Assembly: GCA_030272155.1 (NCBI GenBank)
Contig: CP126204.1
Coordinates: 3,277,501 to 3,341,500 of the forward strand
DNA length: 64,000 bases
DNA from: Tetradesmus obliquus
Lineage: Eukaryota > Chlorophyta > Chlorophyceae > Sphaeropleales > Scenedesmaceae
Direction: 5' to 3'
Under the pieces are notes generated by a model. It made no database searches. It had not been told where the DNA came from and saw only the letters and a program-made list of their open reading frames with translations. Positions 7,646-63,996 of this stretch are shown here, in pieces (within the stretch, counting starts at the first letter, position 1; each line of letters opens with the position of its first letter). A program made the translations under genes and the position numbers.

Positions 7646-10600
7646 ATGGCGTTCTGGACAGCTGCTAGCAAATCAAACCAGGCACCTAGCCTGAGGCCAG
7701 CTGCTGGGCCTGCCAAGCCCCTGACAGTGCTGCTGCACTGCCCCAGTGATTTCAACACACTAGTACGCTTGAAGATCAGGCTACCAAACAACCAGCTGGC
7801 AGCAGCAGATGAAGATGATGATGAGGCTGTGGTTACTGCTAGTGCCACAGCTCTGGCACGGCTTCACAGGCTTATCATTGGAATTGAGGCCAGGTCAGCA
7901 GATGCTGCTAAGCTGTCAGTCACAGAAGTGCTGCAGCCACCAGACACGCTGCAATTGCTGTGCCAGAAGGTGAGCAGGCATAAGAAACTTTCTTTGCAAT
8001 GTGGCCTCATGTGACTTGGAAACTTGCCCCTGCAGTGATACTTGACAGCAGCACGGCACAAAACTGGACACGTGGTTTCCTGCAAGCAAAGGGCAGCACT
8101 GCAGTTGTAGCTGCAGTCCAACAACCCTGCGACATGTTGTGTTGATGTGTGAATAATCTACCTGCCTAGTGAATTGCAGCGTTGCCTACCTGTTGGATGC
8201 CTACTGTACATAGTGCATGCTGCGATCCCCACGCATGTGTGCTGCGTGTCCTGCAGGCAGTTGCTGGCAGGATGTTCAAAGGCCTGATGCCCCTCCAAGC
8301 AGCCCTGGGCTTTGTATTAGGCGATGTCAAATCCTGCATCAGCCTAACACCCCTAGGGCTCTGGGAGCAGCATGAAGCGCTGCAGACAGCAGTTGTCAAG
8401 GCTCTCACAGGCAGCAGCTGCGGCATCAGCTGCAGCAGCAGCAGGCCCAACAGTTTTGCAGGAGCAGCAGAAGTGCTTGCAGGAAACAACGCAGCAGCAG
8501 CAGCAGCTGGTGCAAAGTGGATGTGCCTCAGCAGGAACAAGCTGGTATCCTGCGACCTGCTTTCCTGCAAGCCAGGGCAGATGGCCACTGCAGCTTGTGT
8601 GGAGCTTGAAGCGCGTGCACAACCACCCAGCAAGCTGCTGCTGATGGTCAAGTCAGCAGGTAGGTGTTGGCTTGATGCTTGCAGGACAGCAACCAGCCGG
8701 CGTCATATCTAGAACGGGATGCTGCAGAACGCTTGCACAGCAACACTACAACCTCAGAAGTTGACGCTTGACCCAACGTCCGCCTTAACTGTTGCAGGTA
8801 CTGTCAAGTTCCGGCCATTCTCGCCCATGCAAGTACTGATGGCAGAAGCCAAGTCGCTGGCAGCACCACTGCAGCGCACAGACAACGATGCAGCGCTGCT
8901 GGAAGACCGCAGCAAGCTCGCTGCTGCAGCACGGCAGCTGGACGGCCGCCAAGTTGAGCTACTGCCAGATGAGCGGTGAGCAGCTTGGACTCGGAAGGTG
9001 CCTTCTGTGTGCTGTGTGACATGCTGTTGCGCAGGAAACACAAGGATGCAACGCCTTGCAATGGACCTGTGCTGTTACTAGCCTGAGAAGCAGTGAACCA
9101 TCACGGCTGTGAAACAGCAGGCACTTGGCTAAGCAGCCAAGCTGCATAATCGCAGCACAGCGTGCAGGCTGACATGTGCGGGGTTTGCTGCCGCGCAGGG
9201 TTGCATTCATCAAGTCCCTGCAGCCCTGCCCAGCTGACGCAGCAGTTCTGCAGCAGCTGTGTGACCACTGGCTGGGCTGCTACGGCCTGCTGCTGCCCAG
9301 CTGCTTCCCTTTCATGGTGGGGGTGGCTGCACACCCTGAGGCAGAGGAAGCATCACTGCAGGTGGGCTACTGCTTGTTACACACGGTGCTACTAGCACTT
9401 GTAGTACAAGTACTGAATATATATGGTGCTGGAACTGTTGCTCGCGGTTGAGAGGTGTTTGTTACTGCCAGCTGCTTTCCCCTTCACGGTGGGGGTGGCT
9501 GCACACCCTGAGGCGGAGGAGGCATCCCTGCAGGGATGGGGCCTCTGTGTGAGGTGCCATAGGGTTGATGATGATGACATGAACACAAGCAGTGGTGAGG
9601 GAGGTGGTGGAGAAAAAGAGGTCTTTCACAGGCTGCAGAACCTTTGTACATCACACACGCCCTTCACCAACTTCAGCGCATCAGCTGCCACCAACCTTCC
9701 ACTACTGACCGCTGCATCCACCGCTGCAACCTGCGCTTGCCAGGTACCTAGCTGCTGCGTGCTGACCAGTCTAGGTCTGTCCCTGCTGCCTGGCTCGGTC
9801 CCTGGAGGCAGGGAGTTTGGCAGTGCGCTACAGCAGCTGCTGCAGTCACTGCAGGGCAGTAGCCTGCAGCTGCTTGGCAGCAGCGGCTTTCAGCTGGAGG
9901 CGGCAGCTGCAGGTGGGGCTGACATGTGCGCTGTGCATCAGACCATGCAGAAAAAAATGGAGACTTATAGCAGATACAGCACATTGTTTGCTTTAAGTGT
10001 GGGCTCTTTGGCCAGCATCTCGTTTGACTGATCTTGCTGGCAAGTTATGTCGTGTGTGATGCTGCTATGAGGGTAAGTTATGAGGGTCACTGCAGGGCAG
10101 CAGCCTGCAGCTGCTTGGTAACAGAGGCCTCAAGCTGGAGGCAGCAGCTGCAGGTGCGGCTCGCATGTGCGCTGCGCATGAGGACATACTGCGGACTTCC
10201 AGCAGATGCAACACACGCGATGCTTAGAAGGGTGGGTTTTTCTGGCCACCATCTTGTTTTGCTGATCTTGCTTGCAAGCAATGTCGTGAGTGACGCTATG
10301 TTGAGGTGATGCCAACGTATGCGAATTGTCCACTAACAATTTATCACGTTCATGACCGCCTGCCTACTATGGTTTTGCTGCTGCGTTGTACAGGTGGAGC
10401 AGCAGGTGTTGGCGACAGCCTCATGCAGTTCAGCCAGCTCAGCCAAGGCGGCAGCACAGCGCCTGCAGCAGCAGAGGCTGGCGCCGCAACACTGCAGCCG
10501 AAGCAGTTCAGCATTGGCAGCAGCTGGACAACAGCCACAGACCTGAGGAAGCTGCAGGCAGCAGCAAAGGCGGAGGCGGCAGCAGCAGCTGGCAAGATTG

Positions 10601-12060: not shown

Positions 12061-13255
12061 TTGTTTTCCACCAAGTGTTTGCCGCTGCTTGCAGCGTCTG
12101 CAGCTGGTGGCGGCAGCAGCCTGAAAGGGCTCAAGTGTGCCGGAGATGCAGTGCTACCTGCGCGCAAATGGCCAGCGCGGTGGGCCTACTAAAAAGGCCG
12201 AGGTTGAGGCGCGGCTGCTGGCACTGCTTGGGGCTGATGCGGCTCCTGCCGGGGGAGCAGCAGCAGCTGCAGGGGCACCTACTGAAGCAGCGGCATGATC
12301 TTAATACAACAGATGTGTGCTGCTGGCAGCGTATGCAGCTGGTGATGGCAGCAGCCTGAAGGGCCTGAGTGTGCCGGAGATGCAGTGCTACCTGCGCGCA
12401 AATGGCCAGCGCGGCGGGCCTACTAAAAAGGCTGAGGTTGAGGCGCGGCTGCTGGCTCTGCTTGGGGCTGGTGCGGCTCCTGCAGCAGCAGCGGCAGCGG
12501 CAGCGGCAGCTAGTGAAGCAGCGGCATGATTGTAATCCACCAATTGTTTGCCGCTGCTGGCAGCATATGCAGCTGGTGGTGGCAGCATCGTGAAAGGACT
12601 CAGTGTGCCGGAGATGCAGTGCTACCAGCGTGCCAATGGCCAGCGCGAAGGGCCAACTAAAAAGGCAGAAGTTGAGGCGCGGCTGCTGGCACTGCTTGGG
12701 AATGGTGCGGCTCCTGCAGCAGCAGCAGCAGCAGCAGCAGCTGTAGCTGCACCTGGTGAAGCAGCGGCAGTTAAGTTTAGCAAATGCGTGCCGCTTGCAG
12801 CGTATGCAGCTGGTGGTGGCAGCAGCCTGAAGGGCTCAGTGTGCCGGAGATGTAGTGCTACTTGCATGCAGAATGGCCAGTGCGGCGGGCCTACTAAAAA
12901 GGCAGAGGTTGAGGCGCGGCTGCTGGCACTGCTGGCAGCAGGCCAGGGGGTGGGTGGGGGTGCAGCAGCAGCAGCAGCTGGGGCGCCTGGTGAGGCAGCA
13001 GCAGTTTAGCACAGTTGTCAGCCTGAGCGTGTTACAGCTGCCGCCTTTCTTCGCAAGGCTTGCGATGTTCGCAAGCCTTGCGCAAGTTTTGTGACGGTCT
13101 TGCGAGGCAGCTGTCGCCAGAGTGCAGCTGGTGCTTGCAGCAGTCTGAATGAGTCGAATGAGTCGAAGATGCCGTGCTATCTGCGTGTGCATGGACCAAG
13201 AATTGGGCCTGCTTAAACGGCTGAGGTTGAGGCGCTTGCTCAAGTGTTGGTGTGC
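12061..13255 (+). repeat. Tandem decayed copies of the SAP-encoding exon end
   Basis: Five further copies of the SAP coding segment follow the stop codon. The shared GAGATGCAGTGCTAC core recurs at about 11893 (gene), 12143, 12377, 12611 and 12847, giving steps of 250, 234, 234 and 236 bp; a sixth, strongly decayed copy lies near 13130-13250. Copies 3 and 4 still read as SAP protein. Copy 2 is frameshifted, copy 5 has a TAG in the core, and copy 6 is broken. Each unit ends in an Ala-rich (GCA)n stretch and begins with a TTGCAG-like acceptor. Copies may be transcribed as 3' UTR or used as alternative terminal exons. Confidence 0.9.
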
Positions 13256-19225: not shown

Positions 19226-22200
19226 TTACTGCATGAGAGAAGTAGGCTGCAGTGGCTGGCTGGTGAGCTGCTGCTGGAACTGACGCTCAGGCACCCACAG
19301 GCCATGGAAGCCGTACGGCACCCGCTGCGGCAGTGCCACAACTGCCAGTGGCTGCTGCTGCATGGTGGCGGCATCCCACACCACGAGGCTGCTGCCGCCG
19401 CTGCTGCTGCCGCCGCCGCCGCTGCTGCTGCTGCTGCTGCTGCTGGCGGTTTCATCATGTACGTATGTGACCAGGTACCCGTCGTCTTCGCTGGTACACT
19501 TACTGGGGTCCTCGTGCCTGCAGCAATTTTAAGAGGACAGTGTTTTTGGAGTGGTTCCACAAATAACAGGTTTCAACTTGAGGAGCAGCAGGTAGCCGTC
19601 GTCTTTGCCGGCACACATGGCAGGGTCCTCATGCCTGCAGCATAATCAAAGGCAAGCAGTTCTCAAAGGATACGTCAGGAGCCAGACACAGTTTGCCGAT
19701 GTATCACAAGATAAGCTGGCATCCTCCCCAGCACATTCTGCGAGGTCCACATGCAGCAGTTACAGGCAAGCAGAGATTCACCGCGGCAGTGAGTGAGTGA
19801 GTTAGTGGCTACCCAGGCAGCTCTGCAGCTCCTGGGTAAGTTGAGGCTTGAAGGGTGTGTGTCCGTGGCACAAGAATTTGGAGCTTCACTCACCTTGGGA
19901 TGAAGACAGTCTCGCCGTTGTAGCAGCCTGGCGGCAGCTGAATCTTTGCCACCATCGCGTCACTCCCTTCAGGTGCCCACAGGTCCATCTTTGCCACGCC
20001 ATCCCACTTCACGGCGGCACCAAAGCCAGTGACCATAGTGGCAACATACGCGTAGCGCTGCTTGCGGCCCACAAACCTGTGGCAAAAACAACATGAGACA
20101 GTGTGGCAGATGGTTCACTTGCAGCAGCGTCAAAGTGGTGACCATCATGGCGACGTACGCGTAACGCTGCTTGCGGCCCACAAACCTATGAGGCAGGCAG
20201 TGCAAAGTGCTTTGTCAGGAGATAATGTATGTAGACGCACATGTGTTTCGCAATGCTGGGGTGTGAGCAGGGACTTGCAAACTGGCTGTGTGTGCCAAGA
20301 TACAGAAGCGAGCAGGGCGCAAGCTGACACACACTTCAACCCCAGTGATGCATCAGTAGCATGTGCTGCTGATTGTGCAGCTGCTCGCCGTGCATACCGC
20401 GTTGCTCATGGTGCTCACGGTGTTGCTCACGGTGGGTTCTCACGGTGGGTTGATGGTTGGGAGGTCACCCGTAGTTGTCATCCGAAGTCTCCGTCGTCGA
20501 AACCTTGAGTGCAAAACTATAGACTCAGGCACGGCATCACCTGTGCAGCAGATTGTTTGCTTATCTGCGCAGCTCACCGTGGGTTGATGGTGGGGAAGTC
20601 CCCAGAGGTCTCCGTCATCAGAAACAAGATTCCAAAACCTCAGGCACGATATCACCTGTACAGCAGATTGTATGCCTGTCTGGCAGCTCACCGTGGGTTG
20701 ATGGTTGGGAAGTCGCCTGAGGTCTCCGTCATCAGCCGCAGCTCACCCACACGACGGCCGCTGCTGCTGCTGCTGCTGCTGCTGTTTGGGTCCAGCGTGA
20801 TGACTGCCAGGCGCGGCTGCTCTGCTGATGGGATGGCCCCCTCAGTGCGCGTGTCCAGGTTGAGGCTGATGCTCTCGCTGTGGCACACAAACAGCTTCAC
20901 CGTGCCATCAGCTTCCTCCCAAGCGTTGGCCACGTGGAAGGCCATGTGGGCAGGCAGGTCAAACCAAACCATGCCGGAGTCATCAGCAGCGCCACGCGGC
21001 AGCAGCCCCACCCTGCTGCCCTGCTCAGCTTTGAAGCTGAAGGGCAGGTTGCGCTGCTTCACCATGCGCTGCAGGCAGAGCAGTACCACAGGTGCAGGCG
21101 GAGTGCGGACAGGGGCAGAAAACGGTCAAAACAGAGCAACATGTTGTTTATACCGCGCTGCACCTCGTGGCAGCAGCGCTCCCGTGCTGCCCTGCTCCAA
21201 ATTGTAACTGAAGGGCAGACCAACAGGTTGCACTGCTTGACCATGAACTATCCATGGACAAGCCCTGCAACCTGCTGGTCTGCCCTTTAATTACAATTTG
21301 CATGCAGTGGACTTGAGGGAAATGGTATGAAATGCTGCTGCTGCTGCTGCTGCTGCTGCACGCTGCAGACACCTGCACCGAAACACAACAACTGACAATC
21401 ACCAGCATGGTACCGTGCTACAGACAGGCATCATCGCACCTCTCCATCGAAGCACAGGGGGTTGTCCATGAACACCACCCAATTCTGTGTGATGGCAAAG
21501 TCATGCATCATGACTGGGCGCTTCATGTTGGCAGCACTGATGTCCAGGCTTGCTGTCAGGTCTCCTTTTGGGCCCAGCACGCCATATGACACATACGGAG
21601 GTGCGTCAAAGGTGTAGCGGAAGAAGTGCAGCTCGCCTGCAGCCACATGTTACAAAAAAAAGTGTTAGTAACAATGTTTAAACTGACTGCGCAAGATGTG
21701 ACAGCTGTGGGCTCTTTGTGGCCCAGCACGCCATATGACACGTATGGCGGCGCGTCAAAGGTGTAGCGGAAGAAGTGCAGCTCGCCTGCAAGCAGATGTT
21801 ACAAAAAGTGTTAGTAACAATGTTTGAACTGGCTGCGCAAGACGTGACAGCTGTGAGATTTTTGTGGCCCAACACGCCATACGACACGTATGGCCGCGCC
21901 TCAAAAGTGTAGCGGAGAAGCTGGCTTGCAGTGCAATACCATGTTACATTGGTGTATGTAGCACCGTGTATTTGAAGTGGCTGGGTGTAATGTGACAGCT
22001 GGGGCCGAAAATAACAAGCGGCTCGCTTTAGATGCAAGCAGGGTATGGGGGAGCAAACACAAGGTGCCACTACAGATGACGCTACGCAAAAAGAAGAATA
22101 ACATGTGCCCACCTGTCACCGGGTCCAGCTTGGGGTGTGCGGTGAAGCCCCTCCCAACCGGGCCAGTCACAGCCACACGCCCCGAGCTCTCCACCAAGCC

Positions 22201-25200
22201 AACACACATCACTCTTGATGTATACGGCATGTCTCCCTCAAGATGATAATTGTTTCTTGTCAGATGCAAGCAGTCATTGGGAGAACGAAACATGCCGATG
22301 GCACTACAGAACATGCCACATAATATTACAGGGAACAAAACACATGCCCACCTGTCACTGGGTCCAGCTTTGGGTGTGCTGTGAAGCTGCGTCCCACAGT
22401 GCCAGTCACAGCCACACGCCCCAAGCTCTCCACCAGCCCATCACACATCACTCTTAACGCATACGGCATGTCACCCTCATTCAAATTCAATCTTTCTTTT
22501 TAGAAGCAAGCAGTGAATGAGAGAGCGAAACACACAGATGGCATTACAGAACATGCTACATAACAGGGAGCAAAACATGTGCCCACCTGTCACGGGGTCC
22601 AGCTTTGGGTGGGCAGTGAAGCTCCTCCCGACAGCGCCCGTCACAGCCACGCGCCCAACCAAACCACGACAATTTAAGACACACTGACAAACAACACACC
22701 CTCAAAAACCAATGACAAGCCCGTTGCAACCCACCTGTCACTGGGTCCAGCTTTGGGTGTGCAGTGAAGCTCCTCCCAACAGCGCCAGTCACAGCCACGC
22801 GCCCCAAGCTCTCCACCAGCCCAACACCATTTTGATGCACCATTTAGATGCACACAATGAATGGGGGTTAGATGCACACAATGAATGGGAGAGCAAAACA
22901 CACACAGATGGCACTACAGAACATGCTACACAACAGGGAACAAAACACATGCCCACCTGTCACTGGGTCCAGCTTTGGGTGTGCAGTAAAGCTCCTGCCA
23001 ACAGCGCCCGTCACAGCCACGCGCCCCAAGCTCTCCACCAGCCCATCACACATCACTAGCACCCGGCATGTCACCCTCAACAGTAACCTGTATCCTCGAC
23101 TGCAGGCAGTGTCTGATCAAGTCGCAAACAGCACCCCCAGGTGCATTACATCCACGACGACTACATATCAAAGCAGCAAACAATACCCACCTGTCACTGG
23201 GTCCAGCTTTGGGTGTGCCGTAAAGCTGCGCCCAACCGCACCAGTCACAGCCACGCGCCCCAAGCTCTCCACCAGCCCATCACACATCACTCTTAAAGCA
23301 TACGGCATGCCGCCCTCAATCAAATTTAATGTTTCCTTTTGGATGCAAGCTGTGAATGGGAGAGCGAAACATGCAGATGGCGCTACAGATGGCGCTGTGC
23401 AACAAGAAAAATAACACACACCCACCTGTCACAGGGTCCAGCTTTGGGTGTGCAGTGAAGCTCCTCCCAACCGCGCCAGTCACAGCCACACGCCCCAAGC
23501 TCTCCACCAGCCCATCACACATCACTCTTAAAGCATACGGCATGTCGCCCTCATTTAAAGCCAGCAGCCGGCCAGCATGGCAGGCCAGGGCCGTGTTGGC
23601 TGTGCCGCCGCCGGCGGTTTTGTCGACTGTACCCAGGGCGGTTTTAAAGCGCTCCAGGAAGATGAGCCCTAGGCCGCCGAGGCCCGCGTAGTCGCCAAGC
23701 TTGAGGAACATTGGCCAGCCTGCAGCCGACTCCTGCAAGGAAGTTAATAAAAACACACAACATGGGATGTCGTTGTTTGAAGTACGCACTACAGCGCACG
23801 CAATACAGCATTCAAGCATGTACGACAGCAGGCCACGCTGCTCAAGCTGATCGTGTAAAAAACTTCTTAAACACTTCCCAAACATGTTGCTGCCCAAGGT
23901 TTGTGTAAATGTCATCTCAGCGAATACACTTCTGCCTTCAAGCCTCATTGCCCCACTTGAACAGCAGCTGGGAGGGGTGTGCATGACTCGATGACGATTA
24001 CAACAGTCCTTTTGCTTGAGCATGCCAAACAGACAGCCATGCTGCCTACCTGCGCCAGCTTGGCTGTCGGCACCCATCTGTTGGAGTACATGTTGCAGTA
24101 CCTGGGACGATTGCATTCAGAAGATGAAGTGACAATTGCAGCCACTAGACGTAACAAGACCAATCAGCTGCCTCACCTGCGACAGCCTGGCAGTGGGCAC
24201 CCATCTGTTGCAGTATGCGGCAGCGCCACCCTTCAGCCGCACAGCATGCACCATGCCGTCACCATCAAACCTGACGGCAGCAGCAGCAGCAGTGTAAGGA
24301 AATTGATAGCAGCAGCAGCAGCAGCAGCACTGCATGCCGCACACCATGTCACCTCCTTAGCACACACACTCTGTGCTGCGCACACCTGCAACATGACCAC
24401 TTGCTCTTGACAGTGCGAGCTGTGTAAGCGCTGCGCAGCCGCAACAGCATCATCCCAACACACCACGCACCAGTGGTAACCTCCAAGCGGCTTCAGCAGG
24501 GGGTTGGGCCCCACCCGCAGAAACACGCCCGCAAGGCCTGCAGGAAGCTTGTCCAGCGAGCCACACAGCTGCGGCAGGCTGCTGCTGCTGCTGCCATTGG
24601 TGTCTTTGCTGCTGTGGAATGTGTCTCGCTGCTGCTTCACATCATCATCAGCATCAGCACCAATGGCAGCAGGCTCAACATGACCATTTGCATGGCCGTT
24701 TGCAAGGCCGTTGGAATTCCCATTTTGTGCAGCATGATGCACGCCATTGCTGCCATCTCCTGCCGCTCCTGCTGCTACTGCTGCCTTGCTGGCAGCAGCC
24801 TTTGCAGAGACTGCTGCTGTGCCGGCTGCTGTGCCGGCTGCTGTGACCAGTGGCAGGTTCACTGTGAAGACCTCGCTGAGCTGCGGAGCAAAGTTCCCTT
24901 GCAGGAAAGGCTGGCCCAGGTTGCCATTTGAGTAGGACAGCAGCCACTGCACCTGCTTCACTGCTTGCCTGTGGGTGCATGGAATCAGGCAGCAGCAGCA
25001 GCAGCAGCAGCAGCGGGAGGTCGAACATGCAGGACAGGCTGCCCCAGTATGCCTGCTGTTACAGCCAGGGCCTGCTGCTACAGCCAGTAAGCCTGCTGCT
25101 ACAGCCGGCATGCCTGCTGCTAGATCCATCCAGTGTGCCTGCTGCCACCGCCATCCCATGAGCTATGCGATGCATGACCATCCACATGGCACTGCAACTC

Positions 25201-33364: not shown

Positions 33365-34087
33365 AGAAATATGGGCAGTAGACAACATGACAGTGGACTC
33401 TGTGCCGGCACCACCACCAGGTTGGAGCACACACAGCTGCTGACGGGGTTGCCGACAGTAGCAGCAGCAACAGCAGCATGTGCAGAAACATGTGTTACTC
33501 GTGGCAACTACGGTATGCGCTGACGGCATTGTCAGCCTCTCACCTGGCAGCCCAAACACCAGCAGCTGCCTGCTGCTGCCTGGCAGACTGAGCGTTGCGA
33601 ATGTCAGTGGTTTGCCGGGCTTCATCAGCACGCGCCCAAAGTGCACGCTGCCCTTGCGCTCCAGCAGCGGCTTCAGCAGGTCCCTGTCACCCATGGACAC
33701 GGCACCTGCAGACACATGATATTAGTTCAACAAGTGTCAGGGCTCCATTAGTGGCAGCAGCAGCAGCAAAAGAGCGGTGCCCTTGCGCTCCAGCAGCGGC
33801 TTCAGCAGGTCCCTGTCACCCATGGACACAGCACCTGTTAGGGATAGGTAAGCAGCAGAAGCAGCATCAGCAGCAGCAGCACTTTGAAGCAAGTGCTCCA
33901 GCAGCGGTTTAAGCAGGTCCCTCTCACCCATGGACACGGCACCTGAATGCAAGCAGGGGGCAGCAGCAGCAGCAGCGGCAGCAGCAGCAGCAGCAGCGGC
34001 GGCAGAATGAGTGGCGTCCTTGCGCTCCAGCAGCGTCTTGAGCAGGTCCCTGTCACCCATGGACACAGCACCTGAATGCAAGCAGGC

Positions 34088-34121
<34 letters not shown>

Positions 34122-34204: not shown

Positions 34205-34238
<34 letters not shown>

Positions 34239-38450: not shown

Positions 38451-39697
38451 CAGCAACAGCAGCAGCGGAAGGAACAGCCAATGCACGTGCAGTACCAGGA
38501 GCTCAGCAGTCTCTGCTTGCCTGCTACACTAGCATCCCTGCTGTTCGTTCCAGCACCTTCTACACGAAAACAAGCTGCTGCCCCTGACAGTGCAACGGGC
38601 AAATCCATCCTCACATTCACATCAACCAGCCACAAACGTTGAATCAGCAACAGCATTTCACCTCTCTTCAACCTCCTGTGTGTGATGCCCCTTGTACATT
38701 TCTGCAGGGCTGCTTCCTAGCGTCCTGAAAGTGTTTGCCTGGCTGGAACATGTTGTGCACTGCAACCATCAACTGCGCTGCTCATCAGTTGACTGCCAGT
38801 GTTGCATGTCCCTCTTTTTCTGCAGGGCTGCTTCCTGCCGGGTGGCGCCCTGCCCACAGCGCCCTAAAAGTGTTTGCCTTGCTAGAACATGTTATGCACT
38901 GCAACCTTACTTCAACTGCGCTGCTCATCAGTTGACTGTTGCATGGCCTATCTCTGCCTGCAGGGGTGCTTCCTGCCGGGTGGTGCCCTGCCCACAGCGC
39001 CAGCCGGCAGCACCCTCAGCCTGGTGAAAGCAATCAACACGCTGCGTACAGTCGGCTGCTTCGACCTCACCGTGTTCACCCAGGTGTGTCCGGGTGGAAG
39101 GAAGGCGTCTGTGAACACGTAATCTGCTCAGAGTTCCACACACATGTTGGGTCTCGGGTCTCCGAGAATGACATCCTGTTCATGCGCTTTGCTGTATCAA
39201 TCCAGGCTTTTGGGTGTTAGCAGCAACTTAGCTGCCCATACACACCATGCGCCTTCCCACTTCATCACCTTCTTGCTCCTCTTCTTCCTCTGGGTGTCCA
39301 TGCAGGACTGGCACCCACCTCAGCACATCTCATTTGCTGCAGTGCACAGCAGGCAGCCGCTTCAAGCCATACATCTGCACTACACCAGCAGCGGGCAGCT
39401 CTGCACCTTGTGGTGTTGGCGCAACGCGGTTGGCTGTGTACTCCACGTGACCAGCCCCTGCTGCTGTTGCTGCTGCTGCTGCTGCTGCCTCTTTCTTTTC
39501 TTGCAGGACTGGCACCCACCCAACCACATCTCATCTGCTGCAGTGCACAGCAGGCAGCCGCTTGAAGCCATACATCTGCACTACACCCGCAGCGGGCAGC
39601 TCTGCAGCGAACCAGGCAGGATGCAGCGGCTGTACCCTACAGCCGCCGTGGTCTGTCGATGCAACACCAGCAGCAGCGGCAGTCTTACCCACAGGCC

Positions 39698-46704: not shown

Positions 46705-49700
46705 AGATGGCGCCTACATGGAGGGTTTCAAGGAGTTTCTGGCTGAGGCAGCAGCAGCAGGAGAGCGGGCCAAGCCCAGCCCTGGGGCTGGCGCTGACGC
46801 AAGCGGGCAGGGCCACCTGTGGCGGGACTGGAACGGGCTGAAGACGAAGCAGCGCATCGCCCTGCTGGGAGAGATGCAGAAGGTGCGGGGTTGACTGCAT
46901 TTGGAAGGGAAAAAAGGGACGAACACAGCTCCTGGCACTGCTGGCAGATACGTAGAAGATGCACGGCATTGGGGGTTTGGGGGTTGGGGCGGTCAGGTCT
47001 GGCGCTGACGCAAGCAGGCAGGGCCACTTGTGGCGCGACTGGAATGGGCTCAAGACCAAGCAGCGCATCGCCCTGCTGGGAGAGATGCAGAAGGTGCGGG
47101 TCAGAGATATACAAGGCAGTTTGGCAGGGGCGTAGGTCAGGGACTTGCAATGGTCCAGCGGGCAGGGCCGCTTGTGGCATGATTGAAAGGTTTGAAGACG
47201 AAACAGCACATCGCTCTGCTTGGGGGAATGCAGAAGGCGTGCTGCGCTGTGGGTTTGAGAAGCCGCAGTTTGAGGTGTTTTGAAAAGCGGATGACAGCAT
47301 CGCCCGGGTTTCTGTGGTGTGCTTGTACTGGCCCTTGCCGCAGTTGTGTTATACATAAAGGAAACGCGCATTGCCCCTGGTTCCCTGCTTTGTGCCTGCA
47401 GGCGCTTGAGTAGAAAGGCCAGGGAAGGACACACCATGACACTGCAAACAGTTCTCATGACTGCTGCTGCTGCTGTTGCGCCGCTGCAGGTGCTGGAGTG
47501 GACAGGCCAGGACGAGGCGTTCCGCCTGGTGAAGAAGCACCGGGGCCAGCCCTGGTCAGCGCTGCCGCATGCAGCCAAGAAGGCGCTCCTGGCTGCTGCA
47601 GACAAGATGGACTGGAGCTTCCTGGCAGAGATGGAGGAGGTATCGTGGGGTGTTACCTTTTTGTTCCTTTCATTTTTATGGGATTTCTGTGTTTGACCTT
47701 TTCCTGTAGCTGTGTGCGGCAGCCAAGAAGGCGCTGCTGGCTGCTGCCTACAAGATGGACTGGAGCTTCCTGGCAGAGATGGAGGAGGTGCACACATGCT
47801 TTTAGGTTACTTTCTGCATAACTGTGCAATTGATCCTTGTGTTGAGGTATTGTTTTTTTCCTGTTACTGCATGCGGCAGCCAAGAAGGCGCTGCTGGCTG
47901 TGCCTTACTGGACTTCACAAATCTCAACGAAGCGCTGCCCTGCATCCTGTTGTCCCCTGCTTACCTTCTGCAGGAGGGTGCAGAGATCGCCCACGCAGCA
48001 CACCTTTGGCAGGTCAACGAGCCTGTCCCTGCACTGTCAGCAGAGCCGGCACTGGCAGCTGCCCTGCTGGATGAGAGTGAGGGCCTGAAGGGCATGGTTG
48101 ACTCCGCTGACCTGGCGGTCAACGCGCTGTTGACCGGTCAACAGGAGGCGGTCATCGCCGGCCTGGCCCCTGCGGAGAAGCTGCAGGTGGGCTGGCTGAC
48201 AGGTTGGCTGCTATTTTGTAGCATACAGCATCCGCACCTGTGCATACGTCTCCACCCAATTAAAAACAAGAGGCGGTCGTTGCAGGCCTAAGGGTGCCAC
48301 AGAACCCTACAGGTAAGCTGGCTGGTAGTGGGATGCGCTGCTGGATGAGAGTGAGGGCCTGAAGGTCATGGTTGACTCCGCTGACCTGGCGGTCAACGCG
48401 CTGTTGACCGGTCAACAGGAGGCGGTCATCGCCGGCCTGGCCCCTGCGGAGAAGCTGCAGGTGGGCTGGTTCGACAGATGTTTCCGCTGTGCATGATATT
48501 CCCTGATTGAGATCTGCATAGCATACATGGTTGAATGCACGCCTGAGTATGTGCTGCTGCGGCAGGTTGGCGGGTTCACGCGCTCAGTGGACGTGCCCTG
48601 CTGGTCGGCTGTTAGGAGTTCCTGCTGTCTAGCAGCTGCTGCTGTTGCTGTGGCCATGCATGCTGCCTGTGCTGTTTGCTGCTGTGGGCCATGAATGTCT
48701 GTAAGAGCTGCTGCCGCGTGCTGCCTGCATGGTGCTTTCTGTCTGCTGCCGCGCAGGTTGGCGAATCCAGGCGCAAGGTAGACATGCTAAGGGAGGCAGC
48801 CCACCTCTGCTGCTGTCTGGCCGAGCTGCTGACGCTGCTTGTGTCATTGGGCATGCTGCCTGGTTTGTATTGTGTGTATGGAGGTTGGCAAGTCACGGCG
48901 CAAGGTGGACATGCTGAGGGAGGCAGCGCACCTCTGCTGCTGTCTGGAGGAGCTGCTGACGGTTTGTAACTAAGCATGCTGCCTGTATTGTGTTGGGTTT
49001 ATGCAGGTTGGCGAGTTGCGGCGCAAGGTGGACATGCTGAGGGAGGCAGCACATCTCTGAAGCCTCTTTCACCTCACGCTGCTTACATCATTGTGCGTGA
49101 TGTCCGCTCTGTGAGTTTCCAGTTGTGCAGGTTGGCGAGTCCAGGCGCAAAGTGGACATGCTGAGGAAGGCAGCACACCTTTGAAGCCTTTGTCTGCTGA
49201 CGCCTCCTCGTCATTGAGCATGATGTCTGCTATGTTGATCGCATTTCTGCAGGTTGGGGAGTCCAGGCGCAAGGTGGACGTGCTGAGGGAGGCAGCACAG
49301 GGCGGCCTGGGGCTGGGCAGCGGCGGCAAGGCAGCACGTGGGCAGCAGGTGAGAGCGCGGCAGTGCAGCACAGCATGCAGAGATATATACAAACAACAGC
49401 GTGCAGTGGTGTGAGTGTCTTATTATCAGTCCAGGAGCATGCATGCACGATTAGTTCAGCAGGATTGTCCTCAGCAGGGTGATTGCAAGACACTGCTGGT
49501 ACACATGCTGCCAGCAAGGTTGGCGTTGCATGAGGGTTCTCAAAGCTGCCTGCACATCTCTGCAACTGCTGCTGCTCCACTAAACTTTCCCAACTGTGCA
49601 GCATTGAGCTGTTCCTGCAAGGCACTACATTTGCTAGTAGCTAATGGCGCACCTGTTGCACTTGACTGTTGCAGGGCAGCGCTAACATTCTGCCCTTCCA

Positions 49701-52700: not shown

Positions 52701-53960
52701 CTGAGATACGACAGGTGCGTGTGGTGGCTTAGAGGGGACAACCCCAGCTTGTGTGTGTATGGCTGGTTTTAGCAGTTGGCACAGCAGCACATTTGCATGC
52801 CTCGGCATAAGATTGGAGCTGTGTCGGCTGAGAGGGGCAGCTGCGCATGCTGCGGGAGGCAACCGCAAAACATGAGCATGTCACTGGACGCGTTGACATA
52901 CAACAGGTGAGGCTGCAGTGCGGCCACAGGGCAGACTTACATATTCTGAAGTGAGGGCTTGATGTGTGGAGGTTGTCTGCAGCAGCTGGCAGTGCTGCTC
53001 ATGAGCATGCCTCGACTCAACTGACTCAAGAGTGGCACACTGTCTGGCTGAGACAGTTGATTGCTCTGCAACGATAACTGTGGAGAGATATGTGTTGCAC
53101 TGCTGCCGCAGGTGTGTCTCCGCGCTGAAGGATGTGTCTGCACAGCTGGGCCCCATTGGTGCTGCCATTCAGCTTGATTTAATAAGCACCGCTGACGAAC
53201 GTAGTCAGAGTAACAGATGTTGTTGTCCGCTGCTGTCCCAGGTGTGTCTCCGCGCTGAAGGATGTGTCTGCGCAGCTGGGCCCCATTGGTGCTGCCATCC
53301 ACACCAAGCTGGCAACATTGCTGACGGACACATTCAATTGTATGTGTGATATTGTCTGCGGTGGCCGCAGGTGTGTGTCTGCACTGAAGGACGTGGCGGG
53401 GCAGCTGGGCCCCATCGGTGCGGTCATCCAGACCAAGCTGGCAGCCACACTAACTCATCTCATGCATTCAAGTTCGTGCTGCCATGTTGCTGCAGGTGTG
53501 TGTCTGCGCTGAAGGACGTGGCGGGACAGCTGGGCCCCATTGGCGCGGCCATCCAGACCAAGCTGGCTGCCACTGAGGACGAGGCACTGAGGCAGCTCAT
53601 GAGCGAGCAGAAGGCCCTGGCCGTCGACCTGTTCGGCAAGCTGCAGGTGTGTATTGTCAGATTTTGGTTGGTTCGTTAATTGGGTGATTGGTTGGGTGTT
53701 TAGGGTTGCGCAGCCATTGAGGGTAAGGCCTTGAGGCAGCTCATGAGCGAGCAGAAAGCCCTGGCTGTTGGCCTGTTTGGCAAGCTGCAGGTGTGGCAAA
53801 CCACCAATTAGGTGGTGGGCTGAGCTTTGTATACAGAGGCTGTTGCGTCAGGACTGCGGCAAACGGTCCTTATGGTACTGCTGTACGTGGAGTGAGTTGC
53901 TGCACACGTCCGGAGCCATATGCTCACAGCTTCTGGGCCGTGGTTACTGAGCACTGCTGC

Positions 53961-55374: not shown

Positions 55375-55695
55375 CCATGGCACAGTGGAGGCCCTACAGG
55401 CCTCTCTGTGTAGCCTGTCAGTTCATGTGGCGCTGCGCGCACGCGCATTGGACCCAGCGGTTGCTGCTGCGGCTGCTGCGGCTGGCCTGGAGGGCGCTGA
55501 CCTGGACCTGAACACCCTGGACAAGATGGAGCCAGAGCGTGAGTGGAAGTGAGGTTTAGGGGTGTTATGACATGCGTTTCAGTGTGCTGCTGTTGCAGGG
55601 TTGAGGGCTGAGTTGGTGGAGCGGCGGCTGGCCTGGAGGGGGCAGACTTGGACCTAAACACGCTGGACAACATGGAGCCAGTGCTTGAGTGGGGT
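55375..55695 (+). repeat. Two copies of the terminal exon, large Ala-rich gene
   Basis: GTVEALQASL...LRARALDPAVAA...LNTLDKMEPERE recurs at about 55378-55552, and its last part again at 55615-55690. Confidence 0.92.
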
Positions 55696-57214: not shown

Positions 57215-60200
57215 ATGCTGTGCTTCGACCAATCACCTGCAGTGGACCACCCCCTGTACATGCTTGGTGCAACAGAGGAAGAGCTGCAAGCAGAGTGGGA
57301 GGCGAAAGGCTTCGAGCAATGTTGCAACACATTTCTGTTCAAACATGTCGCTGCGCTTTGACTGTCCCTGCTCTTGCTGTCTCTGCTGTTGTTTGACCAA
57401 TCGCCTGCAGTGGACCACCCCCTGTACATCCTAGGCGCAACAGAGGAAGAGCTGCAAGCAGAGTGGGAGGCAAAAGGCTTCGAGCAAGTCGCCCGGGGCC
57501 GCGTCGCAACCATCCTCATTGCAACAGCGACAGCAGACGGCGCACACACGCACCCCGCAGACGCTGCTAAAGCTGGCAGCGCAGCAGGCGGCGGCAGCAG
57601 CAGCGGCAGCGACAGCGGCTCGGTGCCTCGAGTGGCTGTTGCTGTGCCGGGTCTGCCCAGTGGCAAGAGTGTGCTGCAGCTGACTGCAGAGAGGATCCTG
57701 CGACTGCAGCAGCTGGCAGCAGCAGCGACGTTTGGCCAGAATGCGCCTGTGTCTCGGCACGTGCAGTGGTGAGTGCGCTGGCTGGACGTACTGCTGAGTC
57801 GTAGCACGTCAACCTTGCACTTGAAAAAAAGGGATGGAAGCACACCGTTCATGTCATTGCAGTTGAGCTGTATCAAGGACATCTATGATAATATCTCAAT
57901 CAGTCCTCACCCAATCCGCAGGTACATCATGACATCCCCTGCCACGCATGACAAGCTGGCAGCTAGCTCAAGAGAGCAGGCCTATCTGCCGTTGTTCAAA
58001 TGGCTCAAGGATATTGTGCATGTTTAGTGACAGTTATTACATTCTTGTCATGCCGCCTCCCGCGCAGGTACATCATGACCTCTCCTGCCACGCATGACAA
58101 GCTGGCAGCCACCCTCATGCTCAATCACATTGTGCATGTTTCTCGTCACCGACTAATCTGTAACTTTTGACACTCCCACGCAGGTTCATCATGACCTCTC
58201 CTGCCACGCATGACAAGCTGGCAGCCATGCTCAGGGAGCAGGCCTTCTTCGGGCTCAGCCAGCACTGTCTCTCTTATCAGTCGCCGGTTGTTCATGTTGC
58301 GTGCAGGTACATCATGACATCCCCTGCAACTCACGACAAGCTGGCAGCCACCCTGAAGGAGCAGGCCTTCTTCGGGCTCAGCCAGCAGCAGGTGACCCTG
58401 TTCTGCTGCAAGGCAGCGCCGCCCGCCTTTGCCGGCGAGCCGCTGCGCGCGCTGCAGCTGGGACCAAGCACACTGACGCGTGGCACGCCTGGTTAGTAAA
58501 TCGTTTACATGTTATGCTGGTATTTGAGCAACTTTGATATATTATGTGTGTGCTTTTGACTGCATTTGCCGGCGAGCCGCTGCGCGCGCTGCAGCTGGGA
58601 CCGAGCACACTGACACGCGGCACGCCGGGTGAGCAAGCCAAATTTGCCTATGGTTGTATGGTTGTTTTGACAGTGTTTGGTGCGTTTTGGATGTGACTTT
58701 GACTGCCTTCGCTGGCGAGCCGCTGCGCGCGCTACAGCTGGGCCAAGCACGCTGACACGCGGCACGCCCGGTGAGCAAGCTGTATCCATTCATTTGTTGT
58801 CTTGTAGTAAAAAAATGACACGCGGCACACCTGGTGAGTAAAACATTGCCTGTAATGCTGTTTATTTGAGCAAACGTCATACATTCTGTGTGTGCTTTGG
58901 CCTGCCTTTGCTGGCGAGCCGCTGCGCGCGCTGCAGCTGGGACCATCCACGCTGACACGCGGCACGCCTGGTGAGCAAGCTGTATTTATACATTTGTTGT
59001 CTTTTCCAAATTAACTTTGGCTGCATTCGCTGGCGAGCCGCTGTGCGCGTTGCAGCTGAGACGAAGCGCACGGACACGCGGCACGCCTGGTGAGCAAGCT
59101 GTATTGCTGCATTTCCTCTGTGTGAAGTATGATGTTGACGGCAATCACTGGCAAGCGGCTCAAGCGCAGCGGCATCATACCATGATCTCAAAAGTTCTGT
59201 ATATCTGTGCTTGCTTCAGGCTCCGGGGAGGTATTTGCGGAGCTCAAGCGCAGCGGCATCATGCACTCTGCACACCTCTTCTTAAAACCATCTTCTCTTC
59301 CTGTTACTTGATTGCACTTATTGCAGGCTTGCAGGCTCCGGCGAGGTGTTTGCGGGGTCCAAGCGCAGCGGCATCATGCAAATTGCTCACAAGTTGTTAT
59401 GTTTCTGTGCTTGCTACAGGCTCTGGCGAGGTGTTTGCTGAGCTGAAGCGCAGCGGCGTGCTGCGCGGCATGCGCGGGCGCGGCATCAGGCACGTGGAGG
59501 TGAATGCTGTGGACGACAACGTGCTGGCGCGGCCCGCTGACCCCCTGCTGATTGGCTTTGCAATGGACAAGGGCCTGGACGCAGCAGCAAAGGTGAGCCA
59601 ACCAATCTTAATTTCATGCAGAAACTACCTGCTACTTGATTGTGTACATTATGGAAAGAGGACGGATGGCCGCATGTGGTTCTTTTGTTTGGTGGGGTAT
59701 GGCATCAGGCACGTGGAGGTGAATGCTGTGGACGACAACGTGCTGGCTCGGCCCGCTGACCCGCTGCTGATCGGCTTTGCAATGGACAAGGGCCTGGACG
59801 CAGCAGCAAAGGTGCGGCAGCAGAACACAACTTCATGCAGAAACCACCTGCTACCCTATTGTATACTATTGGAAGAGGTTGGATGGCCGGATGTGGGTCT
59901 TTTGTTTGGTGGGGTGTGGCATCAGGCACGTGCAGGTGACGCTGTGGACGACAACGTGCTGGCGCGGCCAGCGGACCCGCTGCTGATTGGATTCGCAATG
60001 GACAAGAGCCTGGACGCAGCAGCAAAGATAAGGCTGAACACTAAACTAGGTGACGAACAAAATGCATGACGCTTCAGCTGCCTCTGCTTCCTAGACAGGG
60101 TTAGGATGCATGAAATGCAGGCACTGAGATGAGGAAAAGTCGACATGTATGACAAGTCACTGGAAAGAAAGTCAACATTTTTTTCAGCTGGTGGCTCTCT

Positions 60201-61495
60201 GCCGTTCAGCCGCCTGCCAATTCGTCCACGGCTGCGCACTGCATCTCTCACACTGAACTTCTGCACTGTGTTTCTTGCCCTCAGGTGGTGGAGCCATCGT
60301 CTGTGTCAGCTGCCTACGCAGCCGCCATGCCAGCAGCAGCAGCAGCAGATAACGATGCACAAAACCCTGAGCTGCAGCCAGCAGAGGCGCTCAACGAGTC
60401 AATCTCCTTCCTGGCGCCTGCAATCGGCAGCTACTACTTCTCATTCACTGCGCTGGACCGCCTTGCATCCTTTTATAATGCCAATCCGCTGGCCATGTAC
60501 CGCATGGCGCCGGTAGGAAAGCTGCCCAGCAAGGCGCCACCCCCAGCCATGACTGTGAACCTGCCACCCAACGCAACACAGGCGCAGCGCATGCAGGTAT
60601 GTTCTTCTTATATTGCTCTGATTGCTTGCGTGGCTTATTGAATTGGTGTGATGTACAGTTTGCCAAGCAGTGGGGCAGTACAAGAGTTATGTTTTTGTTC
60701 TTTGGGGGTCAGCCGTTGGCCATCTACCGCATGGCGCCGGTAGGAAAGCTTCTTAGTAAGGCGCCACCCCCGGCAATGACCGACAACCTGCCACCAGACG
60801 CCACACAGGCGCAGCGCATGCAGGTGCGTGCGTCTGTACTCCTGCAGCTGCTTGCTTGGATTTTTGGGTTTGCATTTGTGAGTGCGAGTCCGGCAAGGAG
60901 TGGGCATCTTATGGCCGGACAGAGGATTTGTTTTGAGTTTGAGGTGTTCTAGGTCAGCAGTTGGCCATGTACTGCATGGCGCCGGTAGGAAAGCTGCCTG
61001 ATAAGGCGCCACCCCCGGCAATGACTGTGAACCTGCCACCAAATGCAACACAGGCGCAGCGCATGCAGGTATGTTCTTCTTGTATTGCTTTGGTTGCTGG
61101 CAAGGCTTCTTTGTTTGGTATGAAATACAGTTTGGAAAATAGCCCAGGACGGGCTAAGGTTTTCATTTTGGGGCTTGAGTCCATTAGGTCAGCAGTTGGC
61201 TATGTACCGCATGGCACCGGTAGGGAAGCTGCCCAGCAAGGCGCCACCTCCTTCAATGACCGTGAACCTGCCACCCAACGCCACGCAGGCGCAGCGCATG
61301 CAGGTTCGTACATTATGTTTCTATGAAACACGTTGCTGCGGTGCAGCTGTGGTTGCTTGTTGTGTCTGCAAGTAGGGTTTCCAAAGCTTGTTGAGTCTGC
61401 AAGTGACATAGGAAACTGATGTTAAAGGTTTTGGTGGCTCGTTGTGGCTCCTGGCACGGTTGATGATGCAGCAGCATAACCATACTGTGATACTT

Positions 61496-61536
<41 letters not shown>

Positions 61537-62839
61537 GCTGTTACGCATGTTTTGCAGCCGCGTTCATGTGACGTGTTCTGTTCTGCATACACACCGCAAA
61601 GCTTCGTAGCTCGCTGCTGCTTCCCTCAAGCAGCGAGCATTGGGATACTTTGCAAGAGCACGCCTGTTGTATCTGGCACGCTTGGGCCTTAGATTGATGA
61701 GGCACGCCGAGCTACTGATCAGCAGCACATCTGGTTCAAATCTCCCAGATGTTTTTTTGTTACTTTCTGTGTTTATCGATGACGGCGTGATGCCGAGCCA
61801 AAAGTGTTTTTTTGTTTGAGGCTGGTTGGTTGCTAACATCAGTTGTGCCGCATGTATCTTGTCTGCAGGCACAGCAGGCTCTCATGGCAGCGCAGCAGGC
61901 AGCAGCATCTTTTTTGGTTATTATACATGTTGTTAGATTGTTACTGTTTTGTTGTTTTGTGGGTGGCAGCGTGATGCCGAGCCAAGTGTCTTTTTGTTTG
62001 CGGCTGGTTCATTGCTGACATCAGTTGCGCCGCATGTCTGTGTCTGCAGGCCCAGCAGGCGCTCATGGCAGCACAGCAGGCAGCAGCAGCAGCGCCGCCC
62101 AAGCCTGTTGACGGCTACGTGCCCACGCGCTTCATCAGCGACGTCTTCTGCACTGCAGCACCAGCAACGCCATCGGCAGCAGGTGAGAACGCACGGCTGT
62201 CACATCAACTTCTTGCACCCATATTTCTGCCGGCGCATGCTGCTTGCTGGCTGCCAATGCCGTTTGGTTGCGATTGGCGTCTGCAGCATGAATGTAACCA
62301 AGCTTACAACCAGGGCTGATCTCATACTTAGTTAATCAGCTACAGCCTGTAGACGGCTACGTGCCCATGCGCTTCATCAGCGACGTCTTCTGCACTGCAG
62401 CGCCGGCAGCGCCATCGGCAGCAGGTGAGAGCGCAGAATGGCGAAGCTTTAAGCATGCAATGCATGCAGTGCATGCAATGTACATGTATGCAATGGCCTA
62501 CATGCATGCTGACTTCCACTCTGCAATGCACCATGTACTGACACGGTCGCGCTCTGCTGCCTCTGCTGCTGCTGCTGGCGCTGCTGCTGCAGCTGCCGCT
62601 GCCACTAAAGCTGCGTCAGGTGGCCTTAGCCCGCTGTCTGGCTGCAGCCTGGCCTACCTAGCTCGTTCACTCTGCACCACAACATGCACTGACACGGACG
62701 CGCTCTGCTCCTGCTGCTGCTGCTGCTGCTGCCGCCTCTGCAGCTGCACTGGGCGTCCTGAGCCGGCTGTCCGGCTGCAGCCTGGCGCACCTCATACCGG
62801 CTTGACCATCCTGCACCAAAACGTACACTGACTCCATCA

Positions 62840-62887
<48 letters not shown>

Positions 62888-63649
62888 AGCTGCAGCGGCC
62901 GGCCTGAGTCCGCTGTCTGGCTGCAGCCTGGCCTACTTGGGTGTGGACAGGGAGGAGGAGTTCAGCTGTGTGATGGGAGGCGGCCCTCACCTGGCTGTGC
63001 CCGAGCCGGAGATCGCTGCAGGAGACCTGCTGGCACTCACAACCAGGTAGGGTTCAGGGTTTTAAAATATAGGGTTTAGGGTTTAGGTTTGCACATGGGT
63101 GTGGACAGGGAGGAGGAGTTCAGCTGTTATGTGGCAGTCGGCCCTCGGCAGTGCCTGAACCGGAGATCGCTGCAAGAGACCTGCTGGCACTCACAACCAG
63201 GTAGGGTTTAGGGTTTTAAGTATGAGGGGTTAGGGTTTTGTGTTTGGGCATTGACAGGGAGGAGGAGTTCAGCTGTGTGATGGGAGGGGCCCTCACTTGA
63301 CTGTGCCTGAGCCAGAGTCGCTGCAGGAGACCTGCTGGCACTCACAACCAGGTAGGTTGAGAAGGTTCAGCCGCATGTTCTGTATGCTGTGGCATTGTGT
63401 GCTGCATGCAGGGCAGCATAGAGTTGCAGGGCCCCAGCTGCTCCTACAACAGCCACTTGCACAGGTTGTGTAGTCATTTTGCAGCAGTAGTGGCGCGTTG
63501 TTCAGGCTGCATTACTCTGTGATTGCCTGACTCTCATGCTGCTGCTGTTGCTGCTGCTGCAGCTGGGTGGAGAACAGTGGTGCTGTGGTCGAGTGTGTCG
63601 GAATAGCGGCGCCTTTTTTTGGGATGCATAAATATTTGCATTACCTGAC

Positions 63650-63732
<83 letters not shown>

Positions 63733-63996
63733 AGCTGGGTGGAGAACAGCGGCGCTGTGGTGGAGTGTGAGGAGGGCGTTGAAGTGTCTCCCCTCGTGAG
63801 CTATGCGGGAGAAGGCCTGGATGCTGTTGCAGGCGAGGGTGTTACTTTTGCTGAACCCTATGACCTAACACTGCAGGGTGCTACTGGGCAGGGCAAGCCC
63901 AAGCACAATGCGGGGCCTTGGGTGGCACCAGTGCTGGTGGCATATGCGGTGGGGGCTGGCTTGGCGATTGCGAAGCAGCTGACTGGCAACAAGTAG
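57215..63996 (+). CDS. UDP-N-acetylglucosamine pyrophosphorylase-like protein lacking the nucleotide-binding loop
   Basis: Phase-consistent exons: 57411-57768, 58307-58491, 59420-59592, 60285-60596, 62050-62182, 62890-63046, 63735-63996, about 526 residues plus an uncertain first exon (possibly from the ATG at 57215). UAP landmarks: VPGLPSGKSVLQLTAERILRL, QWYIMTSPATHDKL, FFGLSQQQVTLF, HVEVNAVDDNVLARPADPLL, SYYFSFTALDRLA, FISDVFCTA and EEGVEVSPLVSYAGEGLDAV. UAP makes UDP-GlcNAc from GlcNAc-1-P and UTP. The essential LxxGGxGTRLGxxxPK loop, expected straight after RGRVAT, is absent, replaced by an Ala/Gly/Ser stretch, and the usual N-terminal helical region is also missing. The C-terminus adds a hydrophobic tail (VAPVLVAYAVGAGLAIA). 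Probably a divergent or inactive paralogue. Confidence 0.82.
57224..57325 (+). repeat. Copy of the first recognised UAP-like exon start
   Basis: FDQSPAVDHPLY and LGATEEELQAEWEAKGFEQ are repeated about 185 bp upstream of the main exon. The copy contains the only nearby ATG, so it may itself be exon 1 (donor GTGCAA near 57268). Confidence 0.8.
57918..58265 (+). repeat. Three acceptor-side copies of the UAP-like YIMTSPATHDKLAA exon
   Basis: GCAG plus (Y/F)IMTSPATHDKLAA recurs at about 57922, 58069 and 58184 before the intact exon at 58307. The third copy extends to LREQAFFGLSQ. Confidence 0.95.
58555..59100 (+). repeat. Five donor-side copies of the UAP-like FAGEPLRALQLGPSTLTRGTPG exon end
   Basis: Copies end at about 58630, 58771, 58832 (short), 58971 and 59091, each followed by a GTGAGC or GTGAGT donor. 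All five retain a donor. Confidence 0.95.
59130..59395 (+). repeat. Acceptor-side copies of the UAP-like GSGEVFAELKRSG exon
   Basis: Copies at about 59215-59265 and 59330-59390 keep the acceptor and GSGEVFAELKRSGI-like text; a degraded copy is near 59140-59175. Confidence 0.9.
59698..60030 (+). repeat. Two donor-side copies of the UAP-like AVDDNVLARPADPLL exon end
   Basis: HVEVNAVDDNVLARPADPLLIGFAMDK and AAAK recur at about 59700-59812 and 59920-60030, steps 219 and 216 bp. The last copy has lost its donor (AAAGATAAGG). Confidence 0.95.
60700..61305 (+). repeat. Three donor-side copies of the UAP-like MAPVGKLPSKAPPPAMT exon end
   Basis: AMYRMAPVGKL...NATQAQRMQ plus donor recurs at about 60707-60822, 60958-61068 and 61193-61302. 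Steps are 227, 245 and 235 bp. All three stay open through the unit and keep a GTGCGT, GTATGT or GTTCGT donor. Confidence 0.96.
61305..62050 (+). repeat. Intron with dispersed repeat, CAG tract and acceptor-side copy
   Basis: It holds a (CAG)n tract at 61498-61533, the second copy of the dispersed 136 bp repeat at 61593-61728, and at 61862-61910 an acceptor-side copy of the QAQQALMAAQQAAA exon start, about 180 bp before the intact acceptor. Confidence 0.85.
62340..62430 (+). repeat. Donor-side copy of the UAP-like YVPTRFISDVFCTAAPA exon
   Basis: DGYVP(T/M)RFISDVFCTAAPA.PSAAG plus GTGAGA is repeated 243 bp downstream. Confidence 0.94.
62570..62800 (+). repeat. Two acceptor-side copies of the UAP-like LSPLSGCSLAYL exon
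   Basis: CTGCTGCAG followed by GLSPLSGCSLAYL-type sequence occurs at about 62580-62660 and 62735-62795 before the intact exon at 62890; each copy has its own CTG tract. Confidence 0.9.
63095..63355 (+). repeat. Two donor-side copies of the UAP-like VDREEEFSC exon end
   Basis: GVDREEEFSC...PEPEIAA.DLLALTTR plus GTAGG donor recurs at about 63098-63205 and 63250-63357. TTTAGGG-like sequence accompanies the first two donors. Confidence 0.93.
63555..63605 (+). repeat. Acceptor-side copy of the UAP-like WVENSGAVVEC exon
   Basis: CTGCAG plus WVENSGAVVEC is repeated 174 bp before the intact terminal exon; the intervening DNA is mostly (CTG)n (63655-63734). Confidence 0.94.

Follow-up and report, generated by a model that had tools for sequence, protein, structure and literature searches.

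One-sided copies of exon edges are spread through a Tetradesmus obliquus genome, often with unrelated intron ends

In a stretch of 64,000 nucleotides from the green alga Tetradesmus obliquus (assembly GCA_030272155.1, contig CP126204.1, positions 3,277,501 to 3,341,500; G000:C14:3277501-3341500 in our numbering, hereafter the window), many exons are accompanied by stubs of themselves in the neighbouring intron. These stubs, which we call echoes, have one splice site each and leave the complete exon readable. The pattern is real, and it extends through the genome (104.66 Mb, 17 contigs). We put at about one half the probability that echoes arise when repair or recombination acts unequally over short distances, in many cases involving a diverged homologous chromosome, are tolerated, and then decay neutrally. 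They are best read as the product of two processes combined: ordinary short tandem duplication for young arrays with homologous introns, and exchange with a diverged homolog for the larger class.

Comparing the window with itself by BLAST gave 111 direct repeat pairs less than 3 kb apart and no inverted pair; ten simulated windows with matching local dinucleotide make-up each gave no pair of either kind. For comparison, we took 20 arbitrarily placed 10-kb pieces across the 17 contigs (L009-L028), which together with the window make 264 kb, and a few small loci. Such repeats occurred in 18 of the 20 pieces (177 direct pairs, 1 inverted), and they are therefore a feature of the genome and not of the window alone. 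Over the 264 kb, short direct duplications of local sequence occur at roughly one locus in every 2 kb. A preliminary description of the window had reported over 60 local copies of exon edges on both strands, and the 58 non-redundant echoes called here come close to that figure. It had let the pattern begin at position 7646, which is too early: the first BLAST pair begins at 9297, and positions 1-9296 differ from the remaining window in that no detected local repeat pair begins there. Runs of the trinucleotides GCA, CAG and CTG are abundant throughout (1-64000), and G+C per 2 kb is mostly 0.52-0.61.

To call echoes, the functional copy and its frame were picked by a codon model from continuation into coding sequence, blind to splice sites and mismatches; its training set was small (1,750 codons). 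Of 422 pairs, 186 passed the coding-score margin and 152 had a usable junction (unusable in the other 34), leaving 129 non-redundant echoes. Among these, 63 are donor-side, lying downstream of the complete exon, and 66 are acceptor-side, lying upstream. Because the functional copy was selected by coding score, this typing follows from the choice and is not independent evidence. What is independent of it is that the splice motif sits at the intron-facing edge and is absent from the cut edge. The 58 window echoes with readable frame and junction comprise 44 on the plus strand and 14 on the minus strand, although two plus-strand calls (22100 and 30975) are located among minus-strand calls and may be wrong. 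Echoes within one array are not independent of each other, and old pairs are truncated by the identity cut-off.

The splice dinucleotide is kept in 110 of the 129 echoes (45 of 58 in the window). Four of the losses belong to an array at 11.8-13.2 kb, where the "donor" call is spurious because the array repeats a stop codon and its 3' flank; without it, the count is 110 of 125. The process is thus not tied to splicing alone, and an exon-edge echo is present in 32 of 50 repeat loci in the window (78 of 136 overall). The earlier claim that every copy keeps a splice junction therefore stands for most echoes but not for those that have lost the dinucleotide, nor for repeats that are not exon edges. 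At the cut edge, acceptor-side echoes never showed a donor-like motif (0 of 66; random expectation 4%), and 13% of the 63 donor-side echoes showed an acceptor-like motif (random 20%). Duplication of whole or mutually exclusive exons can be rejected on this count, the former as the preliminary description had held. It had also set aside transposon insertion, and we likewise see no sign of a dispersed or introner-type element: one young 83-nt filler matched only its own two places, in a search that skips simple repeats and common words, and all copies but one pair are direct.

Beyond the splice site, the echoes differ among themselves. In 82 of 129 cases the match breaks off in the interval from -6 to +12 nt around the splice site, and in 43 it extends deeper into the intron. 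The adjoining intron is alignable with that of the functional copy in 34 of 129 (p<0.01), intermediate in 26 and at chance level in 69 (p>0.1), so that the earlier statement that adjacent intron is carried along applies to the first class and fails for the last. Per position, echoes with unrelated introns have an identity of about 0.9 in the exon and 1.0 at the GT or AG, falling to chance past about +9 (donor) or -8 (acceptor). Exon divergence is nevertheless the same in both classes (at loci with two or three copies, 155 of 1,448 sites where the intron is alignable and 235 of 2,334 where it is not). It is also equal between two echoes (0.106, 73 pairs) and between functional copy and echo (0.102, 152 pairs); in 46 of the 73 echo-echo pairs, with an exon divergence of 0.117, the introns are at or near chance.

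The unrelated intron ends of acceptor-side echoes look authentic. In these 35 echoes, the AG-free stretch has a median of 35 nt, compared with 39.5 at functional acceptors and 11 in an intron control (p 1e-9). Their pyrimidine content (0.66) is that of functional acceptors (0.65), against 0.48 for all YAG sites and 0.51 for the intron control. Neutral decay to saturation would be expected to erase such features. The comparison covers acceptor-side echoes. To judge from these sequence comparisons, many copies would be the same exon edge from a diverged version of the gene, on the homologous chromosome or another haplotype, with its own authentic intron end.

One alternative is that the chromosome's own sequence was plainly duplicated in tandem across exon edges, kept because it is harmless, and then left to neutral drift, as in the potato RdRp gene. 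We think this unlikely to be the full answer. Young arrays do fit it: in a kinesin gene, acceptor-side copies recur nearly unchanged and their intron parts are similar, a 137-bp unit is repeated exactly at another locus (L026), and introns are alignable in the 34 echoes mentioned. Moreover, echo pairs with well-aligned introns diverge equally in exon and intron, and the loss of splice dinucleotides is neutral. Against it stand the chance-level introns of 69 echoes whose exon divergence matches that of the alignable class, and the AG-free stretch that persists although the intron is unalignable.

It is also at odds with the silent differences, which do not track the amino-acid changes. Across classes of amino-acid-changing divergence, silent divergence stays at 0.17-0.20 per site, where the shares of S and N sites were taken as approximately 0.28 and 0.72. 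In bins of 0, 0.05, 0.08, 0.16 and 0.29 amino-acid-changing differences per codon, silent differences per codon are 0.169, 0.142, 0.181, 0.171 and 0.168, and the two measures are hardly correlated (Spearman 0.06). Pooled, the 14 echoes without any amino-acid change have silent changes as numerous as the rest, which self-duplication followed by neutral drift misfits (combined p 2e-5, from values that are not fully independent). Amino-acid-changing counts are clearly over-dispersed (2.24), and silent counts in the unrelated-intron class alone are near Poisson (1.22, p 0.10). In simulations with parameters of our own choosing, self-duplication gave 0.038 differences per silent site for copies free of amino-acid change, with a correlation of 0.49, and a diverged source gave 0.138 and 0.17; the observed values are about 0.20 (the 0.169 per codon above) and 0.06. 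Among three simulated models, the diverged source came nearest on S/N, on the silent rate at N=0 and on the correlation, and the models were about level on dispersion. The simplest history is that the silent differences predate the stub: both copies were once functional versions, and one then turned into a stub and decayed.

Gene conversion acting on old tandem duplications, keeping the exon parts alike while the introns diverge freely, would account for exon parts that are alike regardless of intron alignability. A pair of light-harvesting-type paralogs on the window's contig (L051 and L052) provides a parallel, with 49 nt of exon edge identical and introns unalignable. However, conversion should reset silent and amino-acid differences together, and the 14 zero-change echoes, taken together, keep the usual silent changes (four have neither kind). 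Neutral intron ends should also no longer have their AG-free stretch. We regard this explanation as rather improbable.

Selection on the stubs themselves, as alternative or decoy splice sites, is very unlikely. Such a function would agree with the authentic acceptor signature, with the 110 of 129 retained dinucleotides, and with substitutions biased to the third codon position (250/211/612 by position). It agrees poorly with cut edges that have no second splice site beyond chance, and with a dinucleotide loss (0.147) near the neutral expectation (0.125). Indels are not multiples of three in 83 of 90 cases, and 22 of 23 are frameshifts in the 93 least changed echoes (at most four amino-acid changes), so the stubs are under no protein selection now. 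The same figures speak against the reservoir of alternative splice sites proposed earlier. Protein constraint on echoes was considered as well; a sample chosen less selectively (24 pairs with S 77 and N 78, some of the frames being probably wrong) weakened the idea, and the constancy of silent divergence superseded it. Indirect selection through conversion load would, on reasoning only, be too weak unless diversity were extreme.

Two haplotypes placed in tandem by the assembler would produce silent-biased differences, unrelated but authentic introns, and one-sided copies, and a strain of this group does have separated haplotypes, according to the accessible part of PMC7955037. We nonetheless give an assembly artefact little credence. 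Single places hold 3-8 copies, several of which differ from one another, and decayed copies carry stops and lost splice sites. A higher-order unit is repeated exactly, and spacing is clustered. Furthermore, no second copy was found elsewhere for 921 bp of one gene, which also led us to reject a homeolog within the same assembly.

The preliminary description had raised the birth of new introns from duplicated AGGT-bearing exon sequence, caught repeatedly. GT directly after AG does open 23 of the 66 functional acceptor-side exons, a count also noted with recursive splicing in mind. However, the echoes that were read by eye adjoin existing introns and bear their own intron ends, which is not a prediction of the AGGT model, and none of those cases showed an AGGT duplicate inside an exon that forms an intron, a systematic search not being part of the work. 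Intron birth thus seems extremely unlikely, whereas the accompanying idea that introns grow is upheld.

The reading that we prefer, repair or recombination that often involves a diverged homolog, could proceed as follows. To repair a break within an intron, the broken end would invade the homolog where the exons match, and a short stretch would be copied. Annealing back would then fail because the introns are heterologous, and the end would be joined with an offset. Selection would purge joins that harm the complete exon, the remaining copies would decay neutrally, and ordinary tandem duplication of the unit could multiply them later. Echoes would be tolerated because one complete exon survives, and homology would stop at the exon edge because the introns of the homologs differ. 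Exchange between homologs is possible in this group, since the accessible text of PMC7955037 reports a Scenedesmus strain as likely diploid with its haplotypes separated. Another assembly is 208 Mb, compared with 109 Mb in a sister strain, ploidy being unstated (PMC5552973).

Several observations weigh against this reading. The diverged source is deduced from one assembly, and it requires introns that differ far more than the silent sites suggest. Arrays hold 3-5 mutually different copies, so more than two versions are needed, which calls for very high allelic diversity or repeated events. Four of the 14 zero-change echoes are also without silent change, two of these having unrelated introns. 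Silent counts are over-dispersed in all 129 echoes (1.31, p 0.01) and at spacings below 290 (1.51, p 0.0005). The 12 echo-echo pairs with well-aligned introns differ at 71 of 1,025 exon sites (0.069) and 33 of 525 intron sites (0.063), and 15 intermediate pairs diverge by 0.104 in the exon and 0.163 in the intron; both the match and the existence of an intermediate class are as expected from plain duplication with drift. The light-harvesting paralogs imply that exon-limited conversion or constraint on silent sites acts somewhere in the genome. Finally, 78 of 136 loci involve an exon edge, where about 29% would be expected if tolerated duplications were placed at random, judged from a crude coding map. 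The excess is only about twofold, and part of it reflects detectability.

The copies prefer certain spacings. Taking the smallest spacing per locus, with offsets searched to 1,500 bp and two of the 136 loci dropped for copies shorter than 35 bp, 79 of 134 loci fall at 95-149 bp (mean 123.5, standard deviation 13.3) and 27 at 208-275 bp (mean 234, standard deviation 19). The remainder comprises 12 loci at 30-94 bp, 3 at 150-164, 2 at 185-207, 1 above 275, and a minor cluster of 10 at 165-184 bp between the two main modes. A log-normal distribution is rejected (0 of 500 refits equally bad). Tandem Repeats Finder, run on the same sequence for periods of at least 30, gave 60 arrays, of which 32 lie at 105-163 and 11 at 219-258, and the interval 164-218 is empty. 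The length of the exon part hardly affects spacing (r 0.27, 48 one-unit echoes), and we know of no process with a ruler of about 123/234 bp. It is possible, if doubtful, that recombination or repair bearing such a ruler acts between homologs with heterologous introns, leaving the old exon boundary as an echo while the functional exon gains an intron end of unrelated sequence. In that case the rebuilding of introns would proceed inwards from both ends, and a haploid genome would preserve, in its echoes, fossils of earlier intron alleles.

The pattern can be followed along one gene at 57.4-64.0 kb. When its echoes are skipped, seven exons form one open frame to the stop, and the product matches UDP-N-acetylglucosamine diphosphorylases in PDB (E 1.8e-33). 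The protein has polyalanine stretches and is diverged from its solved relatives. Its features, all on the plus strand, are:

57411..63995, plus strand: diphosphorylase-like gene, read from 57411 onward, with echoes beside most exon edges
57411-57768, 58307-58491, 59420-59592, 60285-60596, 62050-62182, 62890-63046 and 63735 to the stop, plus strand: its exons
57216..57319, plus strand: upstream copy of the edge 57384-57487, with 8 differences, 7 of them at one codon position
57918..58264, plus strand: three acceptor-side echoes of the exon starting at 58307
58562..59097, plus strand: donor-side echoes at 58562, 58705, 58900 and 59023, and a short one near 58816, of the exon with its donor GT at 58492
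59161..59372, plus strand: two acceptor-side echoes of the exon starting at 59420
59701..60027, plus strand: two donor-side echoes of the exon ending before 59593, the second with AT replacing GT and a 1-nt deletion
60713..61305, plus strand: three donor-side echoes of the exon with its donor GT at 60597
61757..61907, plus strand: acceptor-side echo of the exon starting at 62050
62344..62435, plus strand: donor-side echo of the exon with its donor GT at 62183, the intron past the echo at chance similarity
63096..63356, plus strand: two donor-side echoes of the exon with its donor GT at 63047

The echoes at 58562, 58705 and 58900 differ from the functional copy in their 67-nt exon part by silent changes only, apart from one 1-nt deletion; over a longer stretch, the echo at 58900 has N=2.

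Pfam scans of 30 open reading frames in the window put names on few genes. Further loci in the window are:

12086..13235, plus strand: copies of the end of a last exon with stop codon and 3' flank, no splice site involved
22027..23559, minus strand: array of a unit of about 239 bp in a carotenoid-oxygenase-like (RPE65/CCD) gene at about 19-25 kb
33775..34314, minus strand: five acceptor-side echoes of the edge 33705, their intron ends not significantly like the functional one (p 0.10-0.37)
39274..39405, plus strand: copy whose 3' splice site reads TGCAG, lying upstream of 39474-39606 and near an isochorismatase-domain exon
46996..47237, plus strand: two donor-side echoes of the exon ending before 46883, the one at 47157 decayed and its GT lost
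48334..48477, plus strand: donor-side echo, the exon part 98.4% identical to 48060-48186 and the following intron at chance similarity
48753..49177, plus strand: array of acceptor-side echoes with a period of about 124, functional copy at 49249
53092..53448, plus strand: acceptor-side echoes, functional copy from 53496
55376..55692, plus strand: two donor-side echoes of the exon ending before 55288

The stop-codon array spans 11837-13235 in about five repeats with units of 234-250 bp, and we take the repeated sequence, by eye, to be SAP-like. Outside the window, named genes with echoes are a TypA/BipA GTPase (L024) and the kinesin (L050). At L026, an exon named EF2-like by eye has three identical 54-nt copies of its edge with identical spacers, and a different sequence before the first copy. 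In the kinesin gene (C2:7430400-7432000, minus strand), the exon edge is repeated several times upstream of the complete exon with CTG-rich sequence between, and four kinesin profile hits pile up from model positions 260-263 onward.

Parts of this picture are known from elsewhere. In potato RdRp, as far as the accessible text goes, a duplicated segment also covers an acceptor and part of an exon, and the former exon piece turns into intron (Ma et al. 2016, PMC4974935). That case concerns a single gene in which the intron part was co-duplicated, whereas here the copies are widespread, the intron is often unrelated and a spacing is preferred. Earlier work cited in the same paper describes internal gene duplications as common, in the portion available, with segments that include entire introns, unlike the one-sided edges here. 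Small tandem duplications by fill-in at breaks are likewise short, direct and local, and are ascribed to break repair (Schimmel et al. 2021, PMC8355091); in the part of that paper open to us they are short (<100 bp) insertions in humans, compared with about 123/234 bp here, often with non-homologous sequence between copies. Introners also alter many introns genome-wide, going by the accessible text of Gozashti et al. 2022 (PMC9860276), but the one filler tested here revealed no dispersed family. Among titles and the beginnings of abstracts, with subscription journals poorly covered, we found no genome-wide account of one-sided exon-edge copies or of a spacing of about 123 bp.

The exon-edge duplication that we found in print, in the accessible text of PMC4974935, concerns one gene; in this genome, such events rank among the main forces that shape introns. 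In genomes of this kind, stubs may be called as exons by gene finders and homology searches, as happened with the kinesin profile. The sharp length preference offers a direct handle on the repair reaction. If it is true that the copies stem from diverged homologs, one assembly would sample several past alleles per intron end, and silent sites could date intron turnover.

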